Below are positions 5,506 through 53,911 of a stretch of DNA of 55,151 nucleotides, piece after piece (positions within the stretch are counted from its first letter, which is position 1; the number at the start of each line of letters is the position of its first letter). The translations under genes and the position numbers were made by a program. The stretch spans positions 1 through 55,151 of the forward strand of contig JAFZSR010000066.1 in NCBI GenBank assembly GCA_017619275.1, read 5' to 3'. This stretch comes from Prevotella sp. GTDB taxonomy: Bacteria > Bacteroidota > Bacteroidia > Bacteroidales > Bacteroidaceae. The notes under the pieces are model-generated. The model had not been told where the DNA came from. It ran no database searches and saw nothing but the letters and a program-made list of their open reading frames with translations.

Positions 5506-5997
5506 CTACTTCACCAGTTCTCTCACTTTCTCAATCAGTTCTGCCTCGGCGCCATCGGTATATCCCGTGTGGCGATAGACAATCTTTCCCTTGCCATCGA
5601 CGATGACGGTGTAAGGCATGGCGCCCGAGTTGTTGCCCAGGGCTTTCGAGAAATCGTAGTTGGGGTCGAGCAGCACCGTCTCGTATTCCCATCCGTGGTT
5701 GTCGACGAGGGGTTTTACTTTGTTGGTGTTGTGTGCCTGGTCGTTGCTCACGATGATGATTTTCACGCCCGTCTCTTTCTTCCAGTCGTCGTAAACCTCG
5801 GCAATGGCATCCAGCTCGCGGTTGCAGGGCTTGCACCAAGTGGCGAAGAAGTCGATGATGAAGGGCTTGCCTCCATTTTGCAGCTCGGCGGTGTTGATGG
5901 TTTTGCCGTTGATGTCCTTCAGGCTCATGCTGGGCAGTTGGGCCATGGCTGCACAGGCCATTACCAGCATGCAAGTGGTGAAAAAGAATCTTCTCAT
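5506..5997 (-). CDS. TlpA/ResA-like periplasmic thioredoxin
   Basis: This 163-residue protein has a signal peptide (MRRFFFTTCMLVMACAAMA) and a single TlpA-type thioredoxin domain. The active site is FFATWCKPCNRE at about residue 55, and the cis-proline loop is visible as GAMPYTVIVDGKG. Family members act as periplasmic disulfide reductants or oxidants for exported proteins. It is the first gene of a five-gene minus-strand operon that also encodes two Omp28-type proteins with their own CxxC motifs, so those or the barrel protein are plausible redox partners. A well-formed promoter lies about 35 nt upstream. Confidence 0.93.
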   Translation of the reverse strand: MRRFFFTTCMLVMACAAMAQLPSMSLKDINGKTINTAELQNGGKPFIIDFFATWCKPCNRELDAIAEVYDDWKKETGVKIIIVSNDQAHNTNKVKPLVDNHGWEYETVLLDPNYDFSKALGNNSGAMPYTVIVDGKGKIVYRHTGYTDGAEAELIEKVRELVK

Positions 5998-12738: not shown

Positions 12739-12746
12739 TACCTTTG
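12739..12746 (+). promoter_or_regulatory. Promoter of the pgpA operon (-7 TACCTTTG)
   Basis: TACCTTTG ends 9 nt before the ATG at 12756, predicting a very short leader. It overlaps the in-frame TTG at 12744 and so argues against that codon as start. Confidence 0.6.
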
Positions 12747-12755
12747 CACATTGAA

Positions 12756-13232
12756 ATGAGACGCATGCCTATTCTACCAGTCGTCATCGGCACTGGATTC
12801 GGTGCTGGTTTCTGGCCTTGGGGACCGGGAACGGCGGGCGCTGTGCTGGCCACGGCCATTTGGCTGTTGCTGCATCAGTGGCTCAGCGTTGGGGTGCTGG
12901 TGGCTGTCACCATCGGCCTCATCGTGGTGTTCACAGCCTTGGGCACATGGGCCACGGCTCGACTGGCGCCTTATTGGGGCGACGATCCCAGCCGTGTGGT
13001 GGTCGACGAGATGGTGGGCGTGTGGACGCCCTTGCTGGTGGCCAACGGATGGCAGACCGCCCTGGCCGCGCTGGTGCTGTTTCGCTTCTTCGACATTGTG
13101 AAACCCTTGGGCATCCGCGCCCTCGACCGACGGCGGGGCGCCTTTTGGGTGATGGCCGACGACCTGCTGGCTGGTGTCTACAGTGCCGTTGTGCTCTTTA
13201 TCATCATCGTTTTGACGGGATGGGAAAGGTAA
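12756..13232 (+). CDS. pgpA: Phosphatidylglycerophosphatase A family membrane phosphatase
   Basis: This 158-residue membrane protein has four hydrophobic segments and the PgpA signatures GTGFGAGFWPWGPGTAG, DDPSRVVVDEMVG and FWVMADDLLAG, whose acidic residues form the active site. The family dephosphorylates phosphatidylglycerophosphate. Its neighbours (GtrA, CDP-alcohol phosphatidyltransferase, AUR1-like PAP2) match the Bacteroides inositol-lipid cluster, where a PgpA-like protein is thought to dephosphorylate phosphatidylinositol phosphate. That role is a good alternative here (inference). The start was chosen by the promoter position; the ATG at 12765 is also possible. The gene overlaps gtrA by 13 nt. 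Confidence 0.88.
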   Translation: MRRMPILPVVIGTGFGAGFWPWGPGTAGAVLATAIWLLLHQWLSVGVLVAVTIGLIVVFTALGTWATARLAPYWGDDPSRVVVDEMVGVWTPLLVANGWQTALAALVLFRFFDIVKPLGIRALDRRRGAFWVMADDLLAGVYSAVVLFIIIVLTGWER

Positions 13233-13684
13233 AGAACGAGATATGGACTTTCTGCAAGGCGCAGCTATCGGCACAGATGGCCACGCTGGTCGACTTTGTG
13301 GTGTCGTTCCTGCTGGCCGCCGTTTGTGGGCTGTGGTATGTCTATGCCTCGTTTCTCGGCGCATTGAGTGGTGGTGTCGTGAACTGTGTCGCCAACTACC
13401 GTTGGGTGTTTAGCGATGCCCACGACTTGAAGAAGCGTTGGGTGGCCCTGAAATACCTGCTGGTGTGGACGGGCAGCATCGGGCTCAACACCGGTGGAAC
13501 CTATCTGCTCACCGAGCTGTCGGGCAGCTACTTCATCTTCCCCAAGACGGTGGTGGCCGTGGCGATAGCCCTGCTGTGGAACTATCCTTTGCAGCGCATG
13601 TTCGTCTATCGCGACAATAGCCTACGCCGACGTATAGGCAAACTGAAAGGCAAACAATCAAAAACAGATACTATCGAAGAATGA
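13220..13684 (+). CDS. GtrA family membrane protein
   Basis: This 154-residue protein begins MGKVKNEIWTFCKAQLSAQ and has four predicted transmembrane helices. The spacing and charge pattern (ATLVDFVVSFLL, VVNCVANYRWVF, ALLWNYPLQRMFVYRD) are those of the GtrA/DPMS family. Family members help move or present polyprenyl- or lipid-linked sugars at the inner membrane. The gene overlaps pgpA by 13 nt, and its TGA stop overlaps the next ATG (ATGA), so translation is coupled through the lipid operon. The start ATG at 13220 gives a complete first helix. Confidence 0.85.
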   Translation: MGKVKNEIWTFCKAQLSAQMATLVDFVVSFLLAAVCGLWYVYASFLGALSGGVVNCVANYRWVFSDAHDLKKRWVALKYLLVWTGSIGLNTGGTYLLTELSGSYFIFPKTVVAVAIALLWNYPLQRMFVYRDNSLRRRIGKLKGKQSKTDTIEE

Positions 13685-14343
13685 ACTATCGTGACTTCTT
13701 GCAAAAGGTAATCTATCGCATCATCAACCCCCTCATCCGGCTGATGATTCGTCTGCACATCACTCCCAATATCGTTACCCTGCTGGGCTTCGTGGGCAAT
13801 CTGGTGGCTATGTGGCTCTTCCTGAAGGCCGCCCAGCTGGGCGGTCAGACAAGCGATGCTTACTGCCTGATAGGGTGGGGCGGAGCCATCATCCTCTTTG
13901 CCGGCCTCTTCGACATGATGGATGGCCGACTGGCGCGCATGGGCGGCATGTCGTCGACCTTTGGCGCCCTGTGGGACAGCACCCTCGACCGCTACAGCGA
14001 GCTGGTGACGCTCTTTGGCATCTGCCTCGTCTTCCTGCTGGCTGGTGCTGAGTGGTTCTGGATGGGTGTGGTCACCTTTGCCGCCATGGTGGGTAGCATC
14101 ATGGTGAGCTACGTGAGGGCCCGTGCCGAAGGTCTCGACATCGAGTGCAAGGTGGGACTGATGCAGCGCCCTGAGCGCGTGGTGGTGACGGCTGTGGTGG
14201 CCATCGTCAGCGGATTTGCCCAAAACCTTTGGCCACTGGCCGTGGGAATGATGCTCATTGCCTTGCTGGCCAATATCACCGCTTTCTGGCGAGTGGCCCA
14301 TTGCTATAAAGTGTTGAAGGAGCGCGATGGCAAGCAGAAATAA
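13681..14343 (+). CDS. CDP-alcohol phosphatidyltransferase
   Basis: This 220-residue integral membrane enzyme carries the complete family signature DG-x2-AR-x8-G-x3-D-x3-D, seen as DGRLAR, eight residues, then GALWDSTLD at about residues 80-103. The acidic residues bind the CDP-diacylglycerol and metal. The enzyme joins a polyol or polyol phosphate to CDP-diacylglycerol. The operon context (PgpA-like phosphatase, AUR1-like PAP2) suggests the acceptor is inositol phosphate, as in the Bacteroides inositol-lipid cluster, rather than glycerol phosphate (inference). It overlaps the next gene by 17 nt. Confidence 0.9.
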   Translation: MNYRDFLQKVIYRIINPLIRLMIRLHITPNIVTLLGFVGNLVAMWLFLKAAQLGGQTSDAYCLIGWGGAIILFAGLFDMMDGRLARMGGMSSTFGALWDSTLDRYSELVTLFGICLVFLLAGAEWFWMGVVTFAAMVGSIMVSYVRARAEGLDIECKVGLMQRPERVVVTAVVAIVSGFAQNLWPLAVGMMLIALLANITAFWRVAHCYKVLKERDGKQK

Positions 14344-15286
14344 ACTGTTCGACCTGTCGGCGTTGTCGCGACGCGAGATATGGGTGGTGCTGCTGGCATG
14401 CGGGCTGTTTCTTGCATTCCAGATGACGGTGGTGGGCATCATGCCTGCCCATTTCGTCATGGTGGGGCTGTTCATCCTGTTTTATTTCGCCCACCCCCTG
14501 ACGCGCCGCCTGGCCTTGGCGCTGCTGCCCTTCATTGCTTTCGAGATTTGCTACGACTGGATGCGGCTGCTGCCCAACTATCGGGTGAACCCCGTCGACA
14601 CCGAAGACCTTTTCCTTGCCGAGCAGCGCCTCTTCGGCATCACCACTGCCGAGGGCACCACCCTCATCCCCGGCGAATACTTTAACACGCATCATAACGC
14701 CGTGGCCGATTTCCTGGCGGGCTTGTGTTATTTGTGCTGGGTGCCCCTGCCCATGGCCTTCGGCATCTATCTACTGTTCAAGGGCGAGGACCGCCACTAC
14801 TTGCACTTCGCCCTCTGCTTCCTTTTTGTCAACCTCATTGGCTTCGTTTGCTACTACATCCACCCCGCCGCCCCGCCTTGGTATGTGCTGGAGCATGGCT
14901 TCGAGGTGGACTACAGTACGCCGGGCAATGTGGCGGGTCTCATCCGCTTCGACAACATGGTGGGCATCCCCGTATTCCAGAGCATCTATGTGGGCAACTC
15001 CAACATCTTTGCCGCCGTGCCTTCGTTGCATGCGGCCTATATGCTCATTGCCACCGTCTATGCCGTCATGCGGCGGCGCAACTGGCCGATGGTGGCCGTC
15101 TTCGCCGTCGTCACGGTGGGCATCTGGTGGACGGCCGTCTATAGCTGCCACCATTATATCATTGATGTGGTGTTGGGTATCCTCACGGCCATCGTGGGCA
15201 TCCTGCTCTTCGAGTGTTTGCTGATGCGCTGGCGGCCTTTTGCCCGCTTTATGGAAGGCTATAAACGACTGATTTCGGCAGCCTGA
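14327..15286 (+). CDS. PAP2-superfamily membrane protein, AUR1/IPC-synthase-like
   Basis: This 319-residue protein has about six to seven hydrophobic segments. The catalytic region reads AAVPSLHAAYM and, about 50 residues later, HHYIIDVVLG. These are the paired His motifs of the PAP2_3 branch that includes yeast inositol-phosphorylceramide synthase (AUR1). A conserved YYIHPAAPPWY precedes them, also typical of that branch. The predicted reaction is transfer of phosphoinositol from phosphatidylinositol to a ceramide or similar acceptor, or simple lipid-phosphate hydrolysis. It is the last gene of the pgpA operon and is followed by a palindromic terminator. Confidence 0.85.
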   Translation: MASRNKLFDLSALSRREIWVVLLACGLFLAFQMTVVGIMPAHFVMVGLFILFYFAHPLTRRLALALLPFIAFEICYDWMRLLPNYRVNPVDTEDLFLAEQRLFGITTAEGTTLIPGEYFNTHHNAVADFLAGLCYLCWVPLPMAFGIYLLFKGEDRHYLHFALCFLFVNLIGFVCYYIHPAAPPWYVLEHGFEVDYSTPGNVAGLIRFDNMVGIPVFQSIYVGNSNIFAAVPSLHAAYMLIATVYAVMRRRNWPMVAVFAVVTVGIWWTAVYSCHHYIIDVVLGILTAIVGILLFECLLMRWRPFARFMEGYKRLISAA

Positions 15287-43362: not shown

Positions 43363-44082
43363 ATGAGGAAAATTTTGATTGACGCACATACGCACACGGT
43401 GGCATCGGGGCATGCCTACAGCAGTTTGCAGGAGATGGCACGTGCGGCGGCCGACAAGGGCTTGGAGGTGCTGGGCATCACGGAGCATGGACCGAGCGTG
43501 CCGGGGACTTGTCCGCTGCTGTATTTCAGAAACATGTTTGTGGTGCCGCGGCAGATGTATGGTGTGAGGCTACTGTTGGGCTGCGAGGTGAATATCCTTG
43601 ATACCAAGGGTAGCATCGACATGCCCGACGACTACATCGACTATCTCGACCTCGTCATTGCGGGTATACATGTTTCATGGTACAAGGGGGGAACGAAGGA
43701 GGAGAACACGCAGGGGATGCTGAACGTTATTCGCCATCCCAAGGTTCACATCATCAGCCATCCTGTGGATGGTTCGGCAGAGATGGACATCGAGCAGTTG
43801 GTGCTGGCAGCGAAGGAGGCCCATACGCTGCTGGAAGTGAACAACCACTCGCTGGCTCCGCAGCGCAAGAAGACGGTGGCGCGCGACAACAACATGGAAC
43901 TACTGCGCCTGTGCAAGAAATACGACGTTCCCACGATTCTGGGGAGCGATGCGCACGTGTCGTTCCAGATAGCCGACTACGAGAGGCTTTATCCGCTATT
44001 GGCAGAAACAGATTTCCCCGACGAACTGATTATGAACTACTGGCCGGAGCGCTTCTTTGACTACCTGGGCATCAAACGCTGA
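43363..44082 (+). CDS. PHP-domain phosphatase (YcdX-like)
   Basis: This 239-residue protein has the PHP metal-binding motifs in order: DAHTHTVASGHAYSS, GITEHGP, LLGCEVNI, HIISHPVDG, LLEVNNHSL and ILGSDAHVS. YcdX-type PHP proteins are trinuclear-zinc phosphatases acting on small phosphate esters in the cytosol. The gene is convergent with the GT4 glycosyltransferase gene and their 3' ends overlap by 11 nt (44072-44082). There is no terminator between them, which is unlike other convergent pairs in this window. Confidence 0.92.
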   Translation: MRKILIDAHTHTVASGHAYSSLQEMARAAADKGLEVLGITEHGPSVPGTCPLLYFRNMFVVPRQMYGVRLLLGCEVNILDTKGSIDMPDDYIDYLDLVIAGIHVSWYKGGTKEENTQGMLNVIRHPKVHIISHPVDGSAEMDIEQLVLAAKEAHTLLEVNNHSLAPQRKKTVARDNNMELLRLCKKYDVPTILGSDAHVSFQIADYERLYPLLAETDFPDELIMNYWPERFFDYLGIKR

Positions 44083-45226
44083 CTTTTCCAGCCAGTTCGG
44101 AATAGATGTCGACGAAGCGTTGGGCAGCTCCCGTGTTCTCAAAACGCTTGATGTATTCGCGGCTGCGGTCGATGCGCTGCTGACGGTCGGGTGCGCCGAA
44201 AAGCACCTGGCGGATGGCGTGGGCCATGCCCTCGGCATCGTCGGGGTCTACATAGAGGCTGTCGGGGCCGCCGGCCTCTTCCAGACACGAACCCGTGCAG
44301 GCCACCACGGGCAGCCCTTGGCTGATGGCCTCGATGATGGGAATGCCGAAGCCCTCGTAGCGTGAGGGGTAGACGAAGCAGTCGGCCATGCGATAGAGGG
44401 CGGGCAGGTCGTCGTCGGGCACGTTGTGGAGCATCTGCACACGGTGGAACAAGCGGTGCTGCTGCACATATTCCTTGATGCTGTCGACGTAGGGCGTGCT
44501 GTGGCCCACGATGACCAGCGACACGTCGTCGGGCAGATGATGCAGCGCCTTCACCGCCAGCAGCATATTCTTGCGCTCTTCGATGCTGCCCACGCCGAGC
44601 ACATAGCGGTCGGGCAGCACATAGCGATCGCGCACCTGCCACAGCTTGTGGGCCTCTGGCTCCTCGGCAAAGCGGAGGGCGCAGCTCTGGTACACCATGT
44701 CGACGCGCTGCTTGTCAATCTCGCCCAGCTCGCAGATGTCGCGGCGGGTGCATTCGCTGATGGCCACGATGCGGTCGGCCTCTTGCAGCGTCTGGAAGAA
44801 TTTCCGGGTGTAGATCTTCACGTCGGCACGGTTGTAATACTCGGGATGGCGCATGAAGATGAGGTCGTGGATGGTGACCACCGTACGGATGCCGGCCTTG
44901 CTGATGCCGAAGGGCAGTTCGCCGGAGAGTCCGTGAAAGATTTGCACACCATCGTTCTGCAACTGCTTCACGATGCCATGCGAGCGCCAGAGCGCCTTGC
45001 CCAAGGCGGTGTGGCCGTGGGGAGGGTAGCAAAAACACACGTTCTGACGCATCACAATCTGTGAGCGCAAATCATCGCGCCCCTCGTCGGGGGCATATAG
45101 TCGCAGGTTGACCGACCCCGTTGCGGCCAGGTCGTTCACCAGCGTGCGGCCGTAGCTGCCCAGCCCCGTGCCGTTGCGCACGATGCGCTTGGCATCCATG
45201 CCTACAATCAAGCTTTCTGTCATCAT
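44072..45226 (-). CDS. GT4 family glycosyltransferase
   Basis: This 384-residue GT-B fold enzyme has an N-terminal acceptor domain (GMDAKRIVRNGTGLGSYGRTL, FHGLSGELPFGI) and a C-terminal nucleotide-sugar domain with VLGVGSIEERKN, ADCFVYPSRYEGFGIPIIEA and VVACTGSCLEEAGG. The Glu-rich EGFGIPIIEA motif is the donor-binding EX7E of GT4. It probably adds a hexose such as mannose or glucose to a surface glycan. It is a single gene with its own near-leaderless promoter; the start ATG at 45226 (or 45223) lies six bases after the -7 box. A long upstream in-frame extension is rejected because it crosses that promoter. Confidence 0.92.
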   Translation of the reverse strand: MMTESLIVGMDAKRIVRNGTGLGSYGRTLVNDLAATGSVNLRLYAPDEGRDDLRSQIVMRQNVCFCYPPHGHTALGKALWRSHGIVKQLQNDGVQIFHGLSGELPFGISKAGIRTVVTIHDLIFMRHPEYYNRADVKIYTRKFFQTLQEADRIVAISECTRRDICELGEIDKQRVDMVYQSCALRFAEEPEAHKLWQVRDRYVLPDRYVLGVGSIEERKNMLLAVKALHHLPDDVSLVIVGHSTPYVDSIKEYVQQHRLFHRVQMLHNVPDDDLPALYRMADCFVYPSRYEGFGIPIIEAISQGLPVVACTGSCLEEAGGPDSLYVDPDDAEGMAHAIRQVLFGAPDRQQRIDRSREYIKRFENTGAAQRFVDIYSELAGKVSV

Positions 45227-45232
45227 CGGGTG

Positions 45233-45240
45233 CAAAGGTA
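45233..45240 (-). promoter_or_regulatory. Near-leaderless promoter of the GT4 gene (-7 TACCTTTG)
   Basis: TACCTTTG, CACCCG, ATG on the minus strand leaves at most a few leader bases, the same geometry as at 6148-6164. Confidence 0.6.
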
Positions 45241-45397
45241 CGGTTTTTTTTCGTAACTGTGTAAGAATTCGCCGGAATTCTTCAAAGACAAAAAAGAAAC
45301 GGAGCCCATTTAGAGCGTGTGTTTCCTTCTTCGTGACGCAAAAACACAAAATGCACAAATATTTTTCCGTTTTCTTGTTTATTCTCAAAAATAGCAT

Positions 45398-45405
45398 TAA
45401 CTTTG
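45398..45405 (+). promoter_or_regulatory. Promoter of the secreted hydrolase pair (-7 TAACTTTG)
   Basis: TTG at 45375-45377, 20 nt, then TAACTTTG forms a good consensus promoter with a leader of about 30 nt. Confidence 0.65.
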
Positions 45406-45440
45406 TGACCAAAATGAGAACAGTAACATAAAAAAGTAAT

Positions 45441-47138
45441 ATGAAGAAAAACGCAGTAAAACGATTGAGTGTCGCACTGCTGATGGCGATGGCCGGCTTG
45501 GCCACAGCCACGGCACAGGCGACCACTGGCGAAGTGCGAGTGATTAACGAGGTCGACACGGTCTGGCACTTCGGCTATCAGGGCCTCCAGCTCTACAGCC
45601 GTCCCATCCACCGCATCGACATCGCCTACCCGTCGAGCGACATCGATGGCAACCCCGTGGAGTTGAGCGGCTATGTGGCCATCCCCGCCGACCTCTATTC
45701 GGGCGAGCAGCCCGTCGACGGCATCCTGCTCTACAACCACTACACGCAGGTTGGCTATGCCGATGCACCTACACGGGGCTATGCCCTGGGCGAAGACTGT
45801 GTGATTGCCAACCCCCTGCGCCCCAACTACATTGTTGTGTCGAGCGACTTCTACGGCTTCGGCATCACCGAAGGCCTGGGCCAGTACTACTGCTATGGCA
45901 CCGCCAACGGCCAGGCCAGCATCGACTGTCTGCTGGCTGCCCGCAAGCTGCTCGACCAGAGGGGCATCAGCCAGGGACGCCTCCTTGTCAATGCCGGCTA
46001 TTCGTCGGGCGCCTACGATGCCATTGCCACCCAGAAGGTGCGCGACATGTACTACCGCGACCAGATTAGCTTCGACAAGACCGTGGTGGGTGGCTTCCCC
46101 TTCGACCTGCGCGACGCTTTCTCCGAATATGTCAACAAGAAGAACGACTCCACGCAGAACGTGTTTGCCGCCCTCATGATTCTCGACTCCTACAACCGCA
46201 ATGCCGGTCTTGGAGTCGACATCCCCAGCTTGCTCTACGAGCCTGTGGCCTCCCACTTCGACGAATGGTTCCACAGCGGACAATACAGTAACCTCCAGCT
46301 CATTCAGGAGCTCAAAGGCTTGACCCTGGCCGAGGTCGTGAAAGACACCCTCTACCGCGCTGGCTCGCCTTTGACCAAGAATCTGAAGAACGCCATGAAG
46401 GACGTGGCCCTCGAGAACGACTGGGAGCCCGACCCCCAGCAGAACTACTTCGTGTTTAACATCCTGAAGGACAACATCGTGCCCATCAGCAGCTGTCGCG
46501 CCTTCGCCGACTTCCTGGTCAACTACTACTACGACGACATCGAGGACAACAGCCCCCTCTTCCAGAAGAGCATCGTCCCCGAGAAGACCCACCTGCAGAC
46601 CAACTTTATCACCAATGCCGAAAGTCACATCTTGGCCGGAGGCCCCGTCTACATCCTCAACCTCGTCTCCACCCTCGCAGCCCTGCCCGTGCTCTACTAC
46701 GACGGCGAGCTCAACACCCACTATGCCGACCTGGTCTGCGACCTGTCGGTCATGCAGATCATCCACAAGCTCGAGTCGCTGGGCGTCGACGTCAAGGGCA
46801 TCGTGCAGCAGCTCATGGCCAACTCGGACGAAGGTGGCGGCGGACTCTTCGACCTGCTGCAGAAGGTCGACGAGATGCTGGAGCCCATCGGACTCACCAC
46901 CGTTGAACTGATTCAGATGGCCGACGACTGCGGCGTGTCGTTGGAAGAGATGATGCAGATCTACACCTACCTCACCACGCCGAGCGGCGATGGCGCCCGC
47001 GGCCTGGACGATGCTGCTGCCCGCCCCGCGCTCCAGAAGCAGCCCCTTGCCGGCACCCCCGAATACTACATGTTCTTCCTGCACAGTTGGCTGAAGGAGA
47101 ACAACGTCAACATCTATAAGCCCGAGACTTTTGAATGA
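45441..47138 (+). CDS. Secreted alpha/beta hydrolase (secretory lipase-like)
   Basis: This 565-residue protein has a signal peptide (MKKNAVKRLSVALLMAMAGLATATA) and an alpha/beta-hydrolase core. ELSGYVAIPADLYSGEQPVDGILLYNHYT precedes the nucleophile motif LVNAGYSSGAYDA (GxSxG). This layout resembles secretory lipases (LIP family), which act on acylglycerols or wax esters. A helical region of unknown role follows residue ~440. The next gene, a phosphodiesterase, overlaps its end region and also encodes a secreted protein, suggesting joint action on a lipid or phospholipid (inference). Confidence 0.82.
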   Translation: MKKNAVKRLSVALLMAMAGLATATAQATTGEVRVINEVDTVWHFGYQGLQLYSRPIHRIDIAYPSSDIDGNPVELSGYVAIPADLYSGEQPVDGILLYNHYTQVGYADAPTRGYALGEDCVIANPLRPNYIVVSSDFYGFGITEGLGQYYCYGTANGQASIDCLLAARKLLDQRGISQGRLLVNAGYSSGAYDAIATQKVRDMYYRDQISFDKTVVGGFPFDLRDAFSEYVNKKNDSTQNVFAALMILDSYNRNAGLGVDIPSLLYEPVASHFDEWFHSGQYSNLQLIQELKGLTLAEVVKDTLYRAGSPLTKNLKNAMKDVALENDWEPDPQQNYFVFNILKDNIVPISSCRAFADFLVNYYYDDIEDNSPLFQKSIVPEKTHLQTNFITNAESHILAGGPVYILNLVSTLAALPVLYYDGELNTHYADLVCDLSVMQIIHKLESLGVDVKGIVQQLMANSDEGGGGLFDLLQKVDEMLEPIGLTTVELIQMADDCGVSLEEMMQIYTYLTTPSGDGARGLDDAAARPALQKQPLAGTPEYYMFFLHSWLKENNVNIYKPETFE

Positions 47139-49237: not shown

Positions 49238-49332
49238 ACTCAATAATCGTTATATAACATTCTGTCGGCAAAGATAGGCAATTTTTTTGAATAATGAACG
49301 ATAATTGACAAAAATCTCTGCTTTTTTCGTCA

Positions 49333-49677
49333 CTTTGCCGTCTACGACGGCGAACTTTTTCGTATTGCTCAAGGAAACTCCTCCGTCTCGGCAAAAAAAG
49401 AAACAAGTTTCTTTGTTTTGCGCTCGACTTTTCGTCGCTCGACGCTTGCGTCGCTTGCTTTTTGCAAGAACTTTGGCTTCGCCGAAGTTCTTTGCACTCG
49501 GAAATGAAAAGATTTAGAGCCCCTTGATAAGGGGCGGCTATAATGCGGGGATAAAAAAAGACAAAAACTTTTGCATTTCACTCGTTTTTATCGTAACTTT
49601 GCCGTCTACGACGGCGAACTTACTTTGTCTCGGCAAAAAAAGAAACAAGTTTCTTTGTTTTGCGCTCGACTTTTCGT
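49333..49677 (+). repeat. Promoter-repeat mosaic upstream of the amino-alcohol operon
   Basis: A 25-bp block with a GCCGTC-TAC-GACGGC hairpin occurs at 49333-49357 and 49597-49621. An exact 51-bp block containing AAGAAACAAGTTTCTT occurs at 49385-49435 and 49627-49677. Between them lie a GGCTTCGCCGAAGTTC block (49471-49507), a hairpin GCCCCTT-GAT-AAGGGGC (49519-49535) and the 64-bp promoter block (49538-49601) shared with the ABC exporter promoter region. Confidence 0.85.
49594..49601 (+). promoter_or_regulatory. Distal promoter element (-7 TAACTTTG)
   Basis: This is the end of the 64-bp block shared with the exporter promoter. It could give a longer leader of about 105 nt for the operon. Confidence 0.45.
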
Positions 49678-49684
49678 AACTTTG
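49677..49684 (+). promoter_or_regulatory. Main promoter of the amino-alcohol operon (-7 TAACTTTG)
   Basis: TTTG at 49654-49657, 19 nt, then TAACTTTG is a consensus promoter with a leader of about 22 nt before the ATG at 49711. Confidence 0.7.
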
Positions 49685-49710: not shown

Positions 49711-50751
49711 ATGAAAGAAGAATTGAATTATTTAGATAGAAACGAGTTTAACTTCGAACCCAGCGCGAAGGTGGTGGAGGCCATCCGCAACTTCGACCCC
49801 AAGACGCTCTGCTTCTATACCCGCATCTACGACCAGGGCAAGAAGAGCGTCATCTCCGTGCGCTTGAGCGAAATCTACGGCGTGCCCGAGGAGCAGGTGC
49901 TCCTGGCATACGGTGGCGAGGACATCCTGAAGAATGCTATCCACTATTATCTGATGAAAGGGGATAACAAAAAGATTCTCATCCCGGAGTATTCGTGGTG
50001 GTATTACAACAAGGTGGCCAGCGAGTGCTACGGCACCTTCGAGATGTATCCCCTGCACGAGCAGGACGACACCTTCGCCTACGACGTGGACGAGGTCATC
50101 GAATACACCAACCGCATCCATCCCCGTATGCTGCTCCTGGCCTCGCCCAACAACCCCACGGGCAACGGCCTCACTCCCGAAGAGACGGGGCGCATCATGG
50201 AGAACATCCCGGAGGACACGATGGTGCTCATCGATGAGGCCTACGCCAGCTTCATCACTACCGACACCGACTATATCGCGCCGCTGGTGAACCGCTACCG
50301 TAACCTGATTATCTCGCGCACGCTCTCCAAGTTCTACGGGCTGCCCGGTCTGCGCTGCGGCTTTGGCTTCATCGGAGCCGGCCATAGCCACTTCGTCAGC
50401 TACATCAACAAGTACTTGGGCTACAACCGCTTCTCGGAAGCCGTGGCTTTGGCCGCCCTCGACAGCGACGACCACTACCGCCGCGTGGCCGACGACATGG
50501 AGTGGGGACGTCAGCTGTACAAACGTGAGCTGGGGCATCTGCCGGGCTTCAAGGTCTACAAGAGCGTGGCCAACTTCATCCTCATCAAATATCCCATTGA
50601 AATCAAGGAGCGCTTGCAACAGGCACTGGCCGAGCAGCGCTACAAGATTAAGTTCATGACCGACAAGGGACTGGAGGAGTGCCTGCGCATCACGCTGGGG
50701 CGCAAGGAACAGACACAGACCGTTGTCGACACCATCTTGCGTTGCCTATGA
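49711..50751 (+). CDS. PLP-dependent HisC/CobD-like enzyme of a surface-modification operon
   Basis: This 346-residue fold-type I PLP enzyme has the Asn/Pro loop LLASPNNPTGNG, the Asp/Tyr pair VLIDEAYASF and the Schiff-base Lys in SRTLSKFYGLPGLRCGF. The whole length matches the HisC/CobD group. It is not next to histidine genes. In Campylobacter capsule loci, relatives aminate dihydroxyacetone phosphate to serinol phosphate or decarboxylate phosphoserine to ethanolamine phosphate. The downstream LicC-like and LicD genes make such a role plausible here (inference). Its TGA overlaps the next ATG. The upstream in-frame extension is rejected because it crosses the promoter. Confidence 0.88.
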   Translation: MKEELNYLDRNEFNFEPSAKVVEAIRNFDPKTLCFYTRIYDQGKKSVISVRLSEIYGVPEEQVLLAYGGEDILKNAIHYYLMKGDNKKILIPEYSWWYYNKVASECYGTFEMYPLHEQDDTFAYDVDEVIEYTNRIHPRMLLLASPNNPTGNGLTPEETGRIMENIPEDTMVLIDEAYASFITTDTDYIAPLVNRYRNLIISRTLSKFYGLPGLRCGFGFIGAGHSHFVSYINKYLGYNRFSEAVALAALDSDDHYRRVADDMEWGRQLYKRELGHLPGFKVYKSVANFILIKYPIEIKERLQQALAEQRYKIKFMTDKGLEECLRITLGRKEQTQTVVDTILRCL

Positions 50752-51479
50752 TTGGAGTGATATTGGCTGCTGGCATGGCCAAGCGCTTGCGCCCGCTGAC
50801 CGACACGAAGCCGAAATGCCTGTTGGAGGTGGGCGGAAAGACGTTGTTGCAGCGCACTGTCGATGCGATGGCATCGGCGGGCTGCGACACCTTTGTCGTC
50901 GTCACCGGCTACCGCGCCGACATGATCCGCAAGTTCCTCTTCGACACTTACCGCTCTTCGCACTTCATTTTCAATTTCTTGCACAACGCCGACTACGAGC
51001 ACAACAACAATATCTACTCGCTGTGGATGAGCGGGCAGCTGGTGCGCGGGAGCGAGTTCCTGCTCATGGATAGCGATATCCTCTGCGACCCCGCCGCCGT
51101 GTTGGCCGTGGCTGGTCAGGAGGTGTCGGCCCTTGCCGTGAACCGCCACGAGCTGGGCGAGGAGGAGATGAAGGTGGTGGTTGACGACCACATGAACATC
51201 ACCGAAATCAGCAAGACCTGCCAGCCGCAGGATGCCTTGGGCGAGAGCGTGGGCATAGAGAAGATCACTGCCAGCTACAGCGAGGCCCTCTTCCGTGAGC
51301 TGGACCAGATGATTGAGCGCGAGGGCCTCATCGACATCTTCTACGAGCGGGCTTTCGAGCGCCTCATCCCCCAGGGGCACACCTTTAAGGTGGTTGACAC
51401 TACCCACTTCTTCAGCTACGAGCTTGACACGCCCGAAGACTACGAGCGGGCAAAAGAACTATGGCCAACTACGATGTAG
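50748..51479 (+). CDS. LicC-like CTP-dependent nucleotidyltransferase
   Basis: This 243-residue nucleotidyltransferase starts MIGVILAAGMAKRLRPLTDTKPKCLL, the nucleotide-binding signature. It also shows YEHNNNIYSLWMSG, which resembles the NNIY motif of LicC choline-phosphate cytidylyltransferases, and the metal-binding LLMDSDILCD. The C-terminus FSYELDTPEDYERAKEL is usual for the family. It probably activates a small phosphorylated alcohol or amino-alcohol as its CDP derivative. It overlaps the PLP-enzyme gene by 4 nt and the first licD-like gene by 19 nt. Confidence 0.88.
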   Translation: MIGVILAAGMAKRLRPLTDTKPKCLLEVGGKTLLQRTVDAMASAGCDTFVVVTGYRADMIRKFLFDTYRSSHFIFNFLHNADYEHNNNIYSLWMSGQLVRGSEFLLMDSDILCDPAAVLAVAGQEVSALAVNRHELGEEEMKVVVDDHMNITEISKTCQPQDALGESVGIEKITASYSEALFRELDQMIEREGLIDIFYERAFERLIPQGHTFKVVDTTHFFSYELDTPEDYERAKELWPTTM

Positions 51480-52309
51480 ACAAGCTGCACGAGCGCATCC
51501 TGCGCATCCTCATGGCGGTTGACGGCACTTGCCGCCAGCGCCAGCTGCGCTACTACATCTGGGCGGGCACCCAATTGGGCGCCGTGCGCCACCAGGGTTT
51601 TATTCCTTGGGACGACGACATCGACATTGCCATGCCGCGCCCCGACTACGAGCAGCTCATCGCCCACAGCCGCGAGTGGCTGCCGCAGCCCTATGAATTT
51701 GTCTGTGCCGAGAACGACCCCGACTATCCCCTGCCTTTCGGAAAGATTCAGGATGCCAGCACCACCCTCATCGAGCGCACCCATCTGCACTACCTTGGCG
51801 GCATCTATATCGATGTCTTCCCCATCGACGGCGTGCCGGGAAAAACTGGAACAGTCAGAAAGAGCACGTGGAAGACGACGGCCCATTTCGCCCGCTACGA
51901 ATACTGGAAGCGGGTGCTCTACCTCATCCATCGCGACCCCTACAAGCACGGCCACGGCCCTTCGTCGTGGGCGCCCCTGCTGTGTCGCAAGCTCTATACC
52001 ATGCAAGGCGTGCAGCGCAAGATTCGCCAGTTGCTGCTGAAGTACGACTACGAGCAGTCGCCCCTGGTGGCCGACTACGACGACGGCCGCCACGGCGCCA
52101 TGCCCAAGGAGGTGCTGGGCACCCCAACGCCCTATCCCTTCGAGGACAAGACCGTGCTGGGCGTGGAGCATAGCCACGAATACCTCAGCCACAAGTATGG
52201 CGACTATATGACCATCCCCGACGGCGACCATCAGCGCCAGCACAACTTCAACGTGCTCGACCTCGACACGCCCTACAAAGAACAAGCTAAAGAACACGAC
52301 CATGACTGA
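51461..52309 (+). CDS. LicD family phosphotransferase (first copy)
   Basis: This 282-residue protein contains the LicD/fukutin-type core YYIWAGTQLGAVRHQGFIPW with DDDIDIAMPRPDYEQL and, later, YLGGIYIDVFPIDGVPG. LicD proteins transfer phosphocholine or related phospho-groups from a CDP carrier to a glycan, using the acidic DDDID cluster. It is only moderately similar to the second LicD encoded next, so the two may use different acceptor sugars. Its start overlaps the nucleotidyltransferase gene, and its stop lies inside the next gene's first codons. Confidence 0.92.
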   Translation: MANYDVDKLHERILRILMAVDGTCRQRQLRYYIWAGTQLGAVRHQGFIPWDDDIDIAMPRPDYEQLIAHSREWLPQPYEFVCAENDPDYPLPFGKIQDASTTLIERTHLHYLGGIYIDVFPIDGVPGKTGTVRKSTWKTTAHFARYEYWKRVLYLIHRDPYKHGHGPSSWAPLLCRKLYTMQGVQRKIRQLLLKYDYEQSPLVADYDDGRHGAMPKEVLGTPTPYPFEDKTVLGVEHSHEYLSHKYGDYMTIPDGDHQRQHNFNVLDLDTPYKEQAKEHDHD

Positions 52310-53198
52310 CACCTACCAACCCACGCCAGAGATGCGCCGCCTGTGGGCAGCCGAGAAAGACCTGCTGCGCGAGCTGCTGCGGGTATGCGGAGAACACGGG
52401 TTACGCTGTTGGGTCGACGGCGGCACACTGCTGGGCACCGTGCGCCACAAGGGCTTCATCCCCTGGGACGACGACATCGACGTGGTGATGCCGCGCGAAG
52501 ACTACGACCGTCTGCTCCAGATAGGTGCCACCGCCTTCCAGTCGCCCTTCTTCCTGCAGTCGGCCTATAGCGACCGCCACTACTATCACGGCCATGCCCA
52601 GCTGCGCAATTCGCAGATGGCGGCCATACGTCCTTCCGACAGCTACCGGCCCTTCAACCAAGGCGTGTTCATCGACATCTTCGTGCTCGATGGCGTGCCC
52701 GCCGACAAGGCTCTGCTCAAGCAGCGGCTGCACGACGTGCGCAAACGGCTGCGCTTCCTCAAGGCCGTCGATACGCCCATCTTCATCTCAGGGCGATGGG
52801 GACAAATCTTCCGTAAGTTGCACGCCCGCTTTGCCGTCGGCCGCAAAGGCTGGCAGACCCTCTATCGCGAGGCCGAGGACCTGTTGCGCGCCACCCCTGC
52901 CCACGAAAGCCAGCAGGTGGCCGAGTTGGGTTTCAGTGGCGACGACATCCTCTTCGACCGACATATCTTCGACGACACATTGTGGATGCCCTTCGACGAG
53001 ATGATGGTGCCCGTGCCCGTTGGCTACGACCTGCTGTTGCGCACACAGTACGGCGACGACTACATGACCCCCCGTCAGGCGCCTTCCTACCACGGCGACC
53101 TGCTCATCGACACGGAGCGCAGCTACAAAGAGTTGCTGCCCGAGGCTCGGCGCCAATACAGAAAGAAACAATTGCGTAAAATATTTGGCTGCAAATGA
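52302..53198 (+). CDS. LicD family phosphotransferase (second copy)
   Basis: This 298-residue protein has the LicD core CWVDGGTLLGTVRHKGFIPW with DDDIDVVMPREDYDRL near residue 60, NQGVFIDIFVLDGVPADK, and a C-terminal PVPVGYDLLLRTQYGDDYM that is also typical. It overlaps the first licD-like gene by 8 nt and the kinase gene by 4 nt. Tandem licD genes are known in loci that add two phosphocholine groups; here the added group is unknown. Confidence 0.93.
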   Translation: MTDTYQPTPEMRRLWAAEKDLLRELLRVCGEHGLRCWVDGGTLLGTVRHKGFIPWDDDIDVVMPREDYDRLLQIGATAFQSPFFLQSAYSDRHYYHGHAQLRNSQMAAIRPSDSYRPFNQGVFIDIFVLDGVPADKALLKQRLHDVRKRLRFLKAVDTPIFISGRWGQIFRKLHARFAVGRKGWQTLYREAEDLLRATPAHESQQVAELGFSGDDILFDRHIFDDTLWMPFDEMMVPVPVGYDLLLRTQYGDDYMTPRQAPSYHGDLLIDTERSYKELLPEARRQYRKKQLRKIFGCK

Positions 53199-53911
53199 GA
53201 ATCGTTGTTCACCCAACCTACCAGCAGCATGCCGACTTCATCGCGCAGATTCCCTCGCTCATCCAGGAAGGGAAGGGTGACATCGTCTACGACAAGCGCA
53301 ACATGGTGGCACGCATGCTTGACGGCGGCGCCACGTTCATGGTGAAACGCTTCAAGCGGGTGAACATCATCCAGCAAATTGTCTACACCTTCTTCCGCAA
53401 GACCAAGGCCGAGCGTGCTTTCCTCTTTGCCCAGACATTTTTGCAAAGAGGCATCGACACCCCCCGCCCCGTGGCTTTCATGGAGCAGAAGCGTCTGGGA
53501 CTCTTCACCGTGGGCTACTTTGTCAGCGAGGAGGTGCCCGGCACCGAGACCCACTTGCTGCTGCGCGAGGTGCAGCACTATCCCCCCCAGTTGGCGCAAG
53601 CCGTGGCCGAGCAGGTGTGCCTCATGCATAGCCGTGGCATCCTGCATGGCGACTTGAACCTGTCGAACTTCCTCTGCACCGAGGACAGCCCCGGCCAGTA
53701 TCATTTCACGATGATCGACACCAATCGCTCGCACTTCTGCGACGCCATGCCCACCGACGACCAATGCCTAAAGAACCTGGTGCGACTCACCCATCGCCGC
53801 GACCTCTACGAAGACCTGGTGCGCCGCTACGCCCATCTGCGCGGCTGGGATGCCGACGCCACCGCCACCAAAGCCCTCCATCTGCTCGACTGCTTCGAGA
53901 AACGAAGGTGA
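53195..53911 (+). CDS. Kdo/lipopolysaccharide kinase-family protein
   Basis: This 238-residue protein has a protein-kinase-like fold reduced to the lipopolysaccharide kinase (WaaP/KdkA/InaA) form: ATP-binding Lys in ATFMVKRFKR, catalytic loop ILHGDLNLSNFL and metal-binding Asp in FTMIDTNRSHF. Family members phosphorylate Kdo or heptose of the LPS inner core. As the last gene of the operon, overlapping licD by 4 nt, it suggests that the target glycan is LPS or a related lipid-linked glycan and that phosphorylation accompanies the LicD modification (inference). Confidence 0.9.
   Translation: MRIVVHPTYQQHADFIAQIPSLIQEGKGDIVYDKRNMVARMLDGGATFMVKRFKRVNIIQQIVYTFFRKTKAERAFLFAQTFLQRGIDTPRPVAFMEQKRLGLFTVGYFVSEEVPGTETHLLLREVQHYPPQLAQAVAEQVCLMHSRGILHGDLNLSNFLCTEDSPGQYHFTMIDTNRSHFCDAMPTDDQCLKNLVRLTHRRDLYEDLVRRYAHLRGWDADATATKALHLLDCFEKRR

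Follow-up and report, generated by a model that had tools for sequence, protein, structure and literature searches.

Amino-alcohol phosphates and related groups reach bacterial surface glycans by several described routes. In the Lic pathway of Streptococcus pneumoniae and Haemophilus influenzae, which adds phosphocholine, a LicC-like cytidylyltransferase adjoins LicD transferases. In Campylobacter jejuni, Cj1437 converts dihydroxyacetone phosphate to serinol phosphate and Cj1436 converts phosphoserine to ethanolamine phosphate, and in the accessible part of that account Cj1438 joins either product through its amine as an amide, while Cj1435 removes the phosphate (PMC11800397). The cytidylyltransferase PntC functions in phosphonate tailoring, and the available portion of its description places residues E104 and E196 near the substrate amine, with D105 and D192 as the acidic equivalents in LicC (Rice et al. 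2019; PMC6697681). Described here is a five-gene operon of a Prevotella sp. that probably belongs among such systems. It lies on the forward strand of contig JAFZSR010000066.1 (assembly GCA_017619275.1), of which the whole analysed stretch of 55,151 nucleotides is termed the window. Gene 1 encodes a pyridoxal phosphate (PLP) enzyme and gene 2 a nucleotidyltransferase, followed by the genes for two LicD-family proteins (LicD 1 and LicD 2) and a kinase-like protein (Table 1). The source assembly (3.59 Mb, 127 contigs) is 85% complete, which limits each negative result given below for the source genome.

A predicted donor-making pair

On present sequence evidence, the operon probably makes an amino-alcohol phosphate, activates it with cytidine triphosphate (CTP) and attaches it to lipopolysaccharide (LPS), with genes 1 and 2 as the donor-making pair. 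The PLP enzyme would convert a central metabolite to the amino-alcohol phosphate, most likely by transaminating a phospho-ketone (dihydroxyacetone phosphate, for example, would give serinol phosphate) or, as a second choice, by decarboxylating phosphoserine to ethanolamine phosphate. The LicC/PntC-like enzyme would then couple this product with CTP to yield a cytidine diphosphate (CDP)-amino alcohol, from which the two LicD proteins would pass the amino-alcohol phosphate on to LPS sugars, in the core or the O-chain, while the WaaP/KdkA-like kinase would phosphorylate a core sugar. An earlier, sequence-only reading of the operon had already proposed such a PLP-dependent synthesis and LicC/PntC-type activation, and both steps gain support from the distinct clade of the PLP family and the profile scores of the nucleotidyltransferase.

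The pairing of genes 1 and 2 was surveyed in 80 named Prevotella-type loci, which are the best 80 of 363 relatives of gene 1; the closest named-record relatives in this set are from Prevotella, mostly of ruminant origin. In 74 of the 80 loci, the nucleotidyltransferase gene comes directly after the PLP gene, on the same strand. Spacing was taken from a slightly different set of 74 loci (L077 included, L091 omitted), where the distance is at most 60 nt in 69 and the genes overlap in 36, with 34 of these overlaps being of 4 nt, as in the window. A relative of gene 2 at E < 1e-60 occurs in 21 of 151 genomes of a family sample, the source genome included, and it adjoins a PLP gene in all 20 of the others. 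The recurrence of orthologous pairs in many related genomes makes the operon observation more than chance. At the strict threshold of E <= 1e-60, the PLP gene was found only in the source genome among 198 genomes of a class-wide sample.

The sequence-only reading had taken all five genes as one pathway and suggested a survey of their order. That part of it did not survive, as the full order of PLP enzyme, nucleotidyltransferase, LicD, LicD and kinase recurs in just 2 of the 80 loci (L049 and L050) besides the window, with the number of LicD genes and the presence of the kinase varying. Conservation of all five genes was thus rejected, and the conserved unit is the PLP enzyme together with the nucleotidyltransferase. 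Three loci (L082, L108 and L109) present a CDP-alcohol phosphotransferase, an LPG-synthase-TM gene and the PLP gene with no gene 2 in the stretch, its place being occupied by an FeS-assembly gene (named by Pfam on L082 only).

Searched singly against PDB sequences, the nucleotidyltransferase finds PntC (52.7 bits) and LicC (47.8 bits) as its top two matches, while a profile of 30 relatives scores LicC at 89.2 and PntC at 81.3 bits, with the next entry at 50.8 bits. By profile the enzyme thus resembles LicC and PntC more than sugar-1-phosphate enzymes, and its original assignment to the LicC rather than the hexose-1-phosphate type held. Residues K23, D108 and E200, the catalytic lysine and the acidic positions that would contact the amine, are invariant in all 30 relatives. 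The profile alignment brings E104/E196 of PntC and D105/D192 of LicC (LicC positions inferred by subtracting 20 from the chain index) onto D108/E200, whereas the single-sequence alignment at D108 is unshifted for PntC and shifted by two for LicC.

The PLP enzyme might instead be a histidinol-phosphate aminotransferase (HisC), as hisC (TIGR01141) is its best NCBIfam match and gene 1 is the top HisC-profile match in the source genome. Its score of 206.9 bits, however, falls about 70 below the curated cut-off of 276.55, and a tree of 56 proteins, a quick tree with some long branches, gathers the 32 members of the PLP family into a single clade that excludes 8 true HisC (Shimodaira-Hasegawa-like approximate likelihood-ratio test support 100). 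Both K207 of the SKFYGLPG stretch and R326 of RITLG are invariant across these 32 members. Ten relatives that carry the gene pair, each 91-99% complete, were also compared. Eight of them encode a separate HisC above the cut-off (325.8-343.5 bits), and hisD is present in exactly these eight. The remaining two (G136 and G043) gave no hisD match and retain the PLP gene; each also has a further HisC-like gene, divergent in sequence (229 bits in G136, 199 bits in G043), which falls with true HisC but on a long branch, such that the absence of hisD is the sole clean argument from these two genomes. The sequence-only reading had raised the prospect of gene 1 being the only HisC of its genome, and with a separate HisC and hisD in most relatives, a PLP gene kept where hisD is missing and a clade of its own, this identity was rejected as very improbable.

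Transferase partners of the pair

The genes that accompany the pair were assigned with profiles built from clusters of flanking genes, with Pfam names taken from one member of each and the LicD profile named from the two LicD proteins of the window. Within 5 kb of the PLP gene, LicD occurs in 25 of the 80 loci (one also with a CDP-alcohol phosphotransferase), a CDP-alcohol phosphotransferase without LicD in 35 and a member of the CDP-glycerol glycerophosphotransferase (TagB/F) family in 4. At least one of the three families is found in 64 of the 80 loci, compared to none of 20 control regions, each 17 kb long and placed at round coordinates rather than randomly in four related genomes. The PLP-gene tree, a quick tree with 10 of 77 inner branches starred, displays two main groups, and its starred branches require at least two changes of label, as gains or losses, for the CDP-alcohol phosphotransferase, at least four for LicD and at least two for TagB/F.

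A lipid A acyltransferase-like gene (named by Pfam on one member) is present in 20 of the 25 LicD-type loci compared to none of the 35 loci with only the CDP-alcohol phosphotransferase, and a GT4 gene accompanies 22 of the 25. These neighbours argue for an LPS setting, one of the two (LPS or capsule) that the sequence-only reading had proposed. A Kdo/WaaP-family kinase gene is found in 12 of the 25, and in several it sits between the LicD and acyltransferase-like genes. In four other loci (L046, L071, L083 and L095), a TagB/F-like gene (Glyphos_transf; Pfam on L046 only) lies directly upstream of the PLP gene, an arrangement that could reflect polymeric amino-alcohol phosphate in Prevotella, a Gram-negative genus.

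All 35 CDP-alcohol phosphotransferase loci carry an LPG-synthase-TM gene. Among PDB sequences, this phosphotransferase comes closest to AF2299 (35.0 bits), followed by cholinephosphotransferase 1 (21.9 bits). Its relatives extend beyond the PLP loci, with a match at E <= 1e-20 in 27 of 32 genomes, and those of 649-680 bits are confined to the 9 given genomes of the CDP-alcohol phosphotransferase type, the others scoring 111-423 bits. Many other LicD-type genomes hold a more distant copy elsewhere, and the source genome has no match at this threshold, leaving LicD as its visible outlet.

The accessible text of Heaver et al. (2022; PMC9246714) describes an alternative inositol-lipid cluster in which an NTP transferase, a CDP-alcohol phosphotransferase and a HAD protein lie by MIPS, with LPG-synthase-like and carboxypeptidase-regulatory-like genes as neighbours. 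For 45 of the 80 loci the genome was searched for MIPS, which is present in 8 of 28 genomes of the CDP-alcohol phosphotransferase type and in 15 of the 17 others (Fisher p = 1.5e-4, uncorrected for relatedness); the source genome, outside these 17, gave no match. One genome (G184) holds both versions, the PLP locus (L100) and a MIPS cluster (L192), the latter with a fusion of CDP-alcohol phosphotransferase and HAD domain; between positions 5761 and 10096 of L192, the MIPS cluster has, besides this fusion, an NTP transferase and a 260-residue protein that gave no Pfam match.

Taken further, the PLP-cytidylyltransferase pair of rumen Prevotella and their kin might be a portable cassette for a CDP-amino alcohol other than CDP-ethanolamine, for example CDP-serinol, that has repeatedly been re-plugged into LicD for LPS, into the CDP-alcohol phosphotransferase for an amino-alcohol lipid head group replacing inositol lipids, and into a TagB/F-like polymerase. 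This extended proposal is speculative, and as a whole it is more doubtful than probable.

Identity of the amino alcohol and alternative explanations

The source genome encodes, in addition to the operon, a 607-residue protein in which a cytidylyltransferase and a PLP enzyme are fused (contig C68; L155 8569-10392). This paralogue pairs the same two functions and so lends support to the donor pair. An octopine-dehydrogenase-like gene follows the fused LicC-like/CobD-like protein (L155 7412-10392), and many genomes in the family sample have related frames, about 600-720 residues long.

The two PLP enzymes lean in opposite directions. That of the window scores far better with hisC than with CobD (TIGR01140; 112.0 bits against a cut-off of 290.55), as do three true HisC (334-344 against 180-189 bits), whereas the PLP half of the fused protein favours CobD (190.5 bits) over hisC (139.6 bits), both below their cut-offs. 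The nearest PDB sequence to the fused PLP half is 6oux (threonine-phosphate-decarboxylase-like, 156 bits), then CobD (117 bits); 6oux scores 105.8 bits with the profile of the window PLP family. We take 6oux to be SMUL_1544, presumably a phosphoserine decarboxylase. The accessible part of one source names SMUL_1544 threonine phosphate decarboxylase-like (PMC7755780). The genome thus seems to hold two pairings, of which one leans to decarboxylases and the other to aminotransferases, and the position of the window enzyme with the aminotransferases, beside a CobD-type paralogue, weakly favours a transamination product over ethanolamine phosphate; the separation rests on profile scores, which are weak evidence on the reaction, rather than on a residue-level distinction. 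By analogy with Cj1437, serinol phosphate is tentatively the best single candidate for the product, and some other amino-alcohol phosphate is also quite possible.

Several findings weigh against the operon as a pathway of this kind. NCBIfam ranks sugar enzymes (archaeal sugar families first) and inositol enzymes at the top for the nucleotidyltransferase, with a best score of 74.9 bits that is far below cut-offs, in a ranking of 25 families shown that includes no LicC or PntC model. Neither hisD nor another HisC above the cut-off was found in the source genome, and the verdict that gene 1 is not HisC rests in consequence on the relatives. The kinase-like protein scores 50 bits with the KdkA model NF002475 (3-deoxy-D-manno-octulosonic acid kinase), where the curated cut-off is 142. 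In sixteen of the 80 loci, no gene of the three transferase families lies within 5 kb; several of these loci are ended by contig edges, and six have LicD 6.8-7.8 kb away (L060, L063, L064, L067, L111 and L115). Lastly, the sole PDB-sequence match of LicD 2, the one LicD protein searched, is FKRP, which we take to be a ribitol-phosphate transferase, and LicD accordingly fixes neither the group nor its acceptor.

The kinship with FKRP leaves room for a cytidylyltransferase that activates a polyol or inositol phosphate for transfer by LicD, with the PLP enzyme unrelated or modifying the group. Inositol-phosphate cytidylyltransferases are indeed relatives of the nucleotidyltransferase (42.0 and 39.4 bits), and the accessible text of Heaver et al. 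(2022; PMC9246714) proposes CDP-inositol with a similar gene set. The tight coupling of the PLP and nucleotidyltransferase genes, consecutive in most loci and often overlapping, and the lack of a MIPS match in the source genome and in 20 of the 28 genomes of the CDP-alcohol phosphotransferase type nevertheless make this explanation improbable. Nearer to the preferred pathway is one that differs from it in the product alone, ethanolamine phosphate made by decarboxylation of phosphoserine. The superfamily includes such decarboxylases, 6oux among them as well as Cj1436, which like Cj1437 we take to be a HisC/CobD-type enzyme, and phosphoethanolamine is a common LPS group; yet the hisC-first profile of the window enzyme, reversed in the fused paralogue, and the likeness of that paralogue to the decarboxylase-type route render this product rather unlikely. 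The close relationship of PntC to the cytidylyltransferase could suggest aminoethylphosphonate tailoring with gene 1 as the transaminase, but the transaminase half of the PntC fusion is named as class V while the window enzyme is class I/II, and the PEP mutase profile reaches 25.7 bits in the source genome against a cut-off of 31.5; this phosphonate reading was rejected as barely credible. Choline was likewise rejected as the group. The sequence-only reading had found no choline kinase gene, and the source genome as a whole gave no match to PF01633, although choline uptake genes were not searched.

Gene layout and upstream region

The successive junctions of the five open reading frames overlap by 4, 19, 8 and 4 nt and the translations contain SKFYGLPG, DDDID (twice) and HGDLNLSN, all as first read from the sequence. 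Pfam scores are above cut-offs throughout: Aminotran_1_2 130 bits, NTP_transferase 47.2, LicD (PF04991) 136.8 and 142.9 for the two proteins bearing the DDDID core, and Kdo/WaaP (PF06293) 44.9 against a cut-off of 21.3.

The pattern TTTG-N17-23-TAnnTTTG, which we take to be a Bacteroidetes-type promoter consensus, matches the window 6 times (0.58 expected), a count reached by none of 100 shuffles. The proximal match ends 26 nt 5' of the ATG at 49711, and the positions of the matches favour this start over an upstream TTG at 49660. Two direct repeats also lie upstream of gene 1 (49322-49677). The longer (83 nt, 82% identity) has a spacing of 242 nt and the shorter (36 nt, 94% identity) one of 264 nt, and the second 83-nt copy overlaps a promoter-like match. 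Elsewhere in the window (12744-15286, forward strand), four overlapping genes resemble the Bacteroides inositol-lipid cluster BT_1525-BT_1522: PgpA-like (12744-13232, by eye), GtrA (within 12818-13684), CDP-alcohol phosphotransferase (13681-14343) and PAP2 (14327-15286).

Table 1. Features of the operon and its surroundings, in coordinates of the window
Feature	Position	Strand	Basis
Gene 1, PLP enzyme of the HisC/CobD superfamily, own clade; probable amino-alcohol phosphate maker	49711-50751	+	Pfam, NCBIfam, tree
Gene 2, LicC/PntC-like cytidylyltransferase; NNIYSL stretch, K23, D108, D110, E200	50748-51479	+	Pfam, PDB-sequence profile
LicD-family phosphotransferase 1; WDDDIDI	51461-52309	+	Pfam
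LicD-family phosphotransferase 2; WDDDIDV	52302-53198	+	Pfam, PDB-sequence search
Kdo/WaaP-family sugar kinase-like protein; VKRF, HGDLNLSN, IDTNRS	53195-53911	+	Pfam, motifs by eye
Distal promoter-like match, TTTG-N-TAnnTTTG	49570-49601	+	Pattern search
Proximal promoter-like match, TTTG-N-TAnnTTTG, immediately 5' of gene 1	49654-49684	+	Pattern search
GT4 glycosyltransferase, frequent neighbour in LicD-type loci	44072-45559	-	Flanking-gene profiles

Comparison with described systems

The component families are known, whereas a class I/II PLP enzyme paired with a LicC-like one, and the exchange of this pair among three transferase classes, appear undescribed, as no published description was found in the accessible parts of the open-access literature; the assignment, drawn from sequence, is sound but unproven. 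If true, many rumen Prevotella would bear zwitterionic amino-alcohol phosphates on their LPS or lipids, made from central metabolites with no need to scavenge choline. A single donor cassette would account for the decoration of LPS and lipids alike, and some of these bacteria may carry a lipid head group other than inositol or classical phosphoethanolamine. An assayable hypothesis is thereby offered for genes that profiles would call HisC and sugar nucleotidyltransferase.

The operon shares with the Lic pathway a LicC-like cytidylyltransferase adjoining LicD transferases, but presents a PLP enzyme where the Lic pathway has import and a kinase, and no counterpart of the choline kinase LicA was matched in the source genome. 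The PntC system likewise couples a cytidylyltransferase, with acidic residues by the amine, to a PLP enzyme, according to the available portion of Rice et al. (2019; PMC6697681); that of the window differs in class and is encoded by a separate gene rather than a fusion, and its genome has no PEP mutase match above the cut-off. Cj1436 and Cj1437 of C. jejuni also make ethanolamine phosphate or serinol phosphate for a surface glycan, and the accessible part of that account describes no CDP step (PMC11800397), in contrast to the predicted CDP step and LicD proteins of the window. The phosphoserine and phosphothreonine decarboxylases of the SMUL_1544-like and CobD types belong to the same superfamily as the window PLP enzyme, which scores on the aminotransferase side, and the fused paralogue is much closer to them. 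The arrangement of Heaver et al. (2022) is missing from the PLP locus of the window and appears instead in sister-group loci of the pair, where the CDP-alcohol phosphotransferase loci share with it the phosphotransferase, the LPG-synthase-like gene and mostly the NTP transferase, 12 of them also a carboxypeptidase-regulatory-like DUF5686 gene, and the PLP enzyme occupies the position of MIPS.

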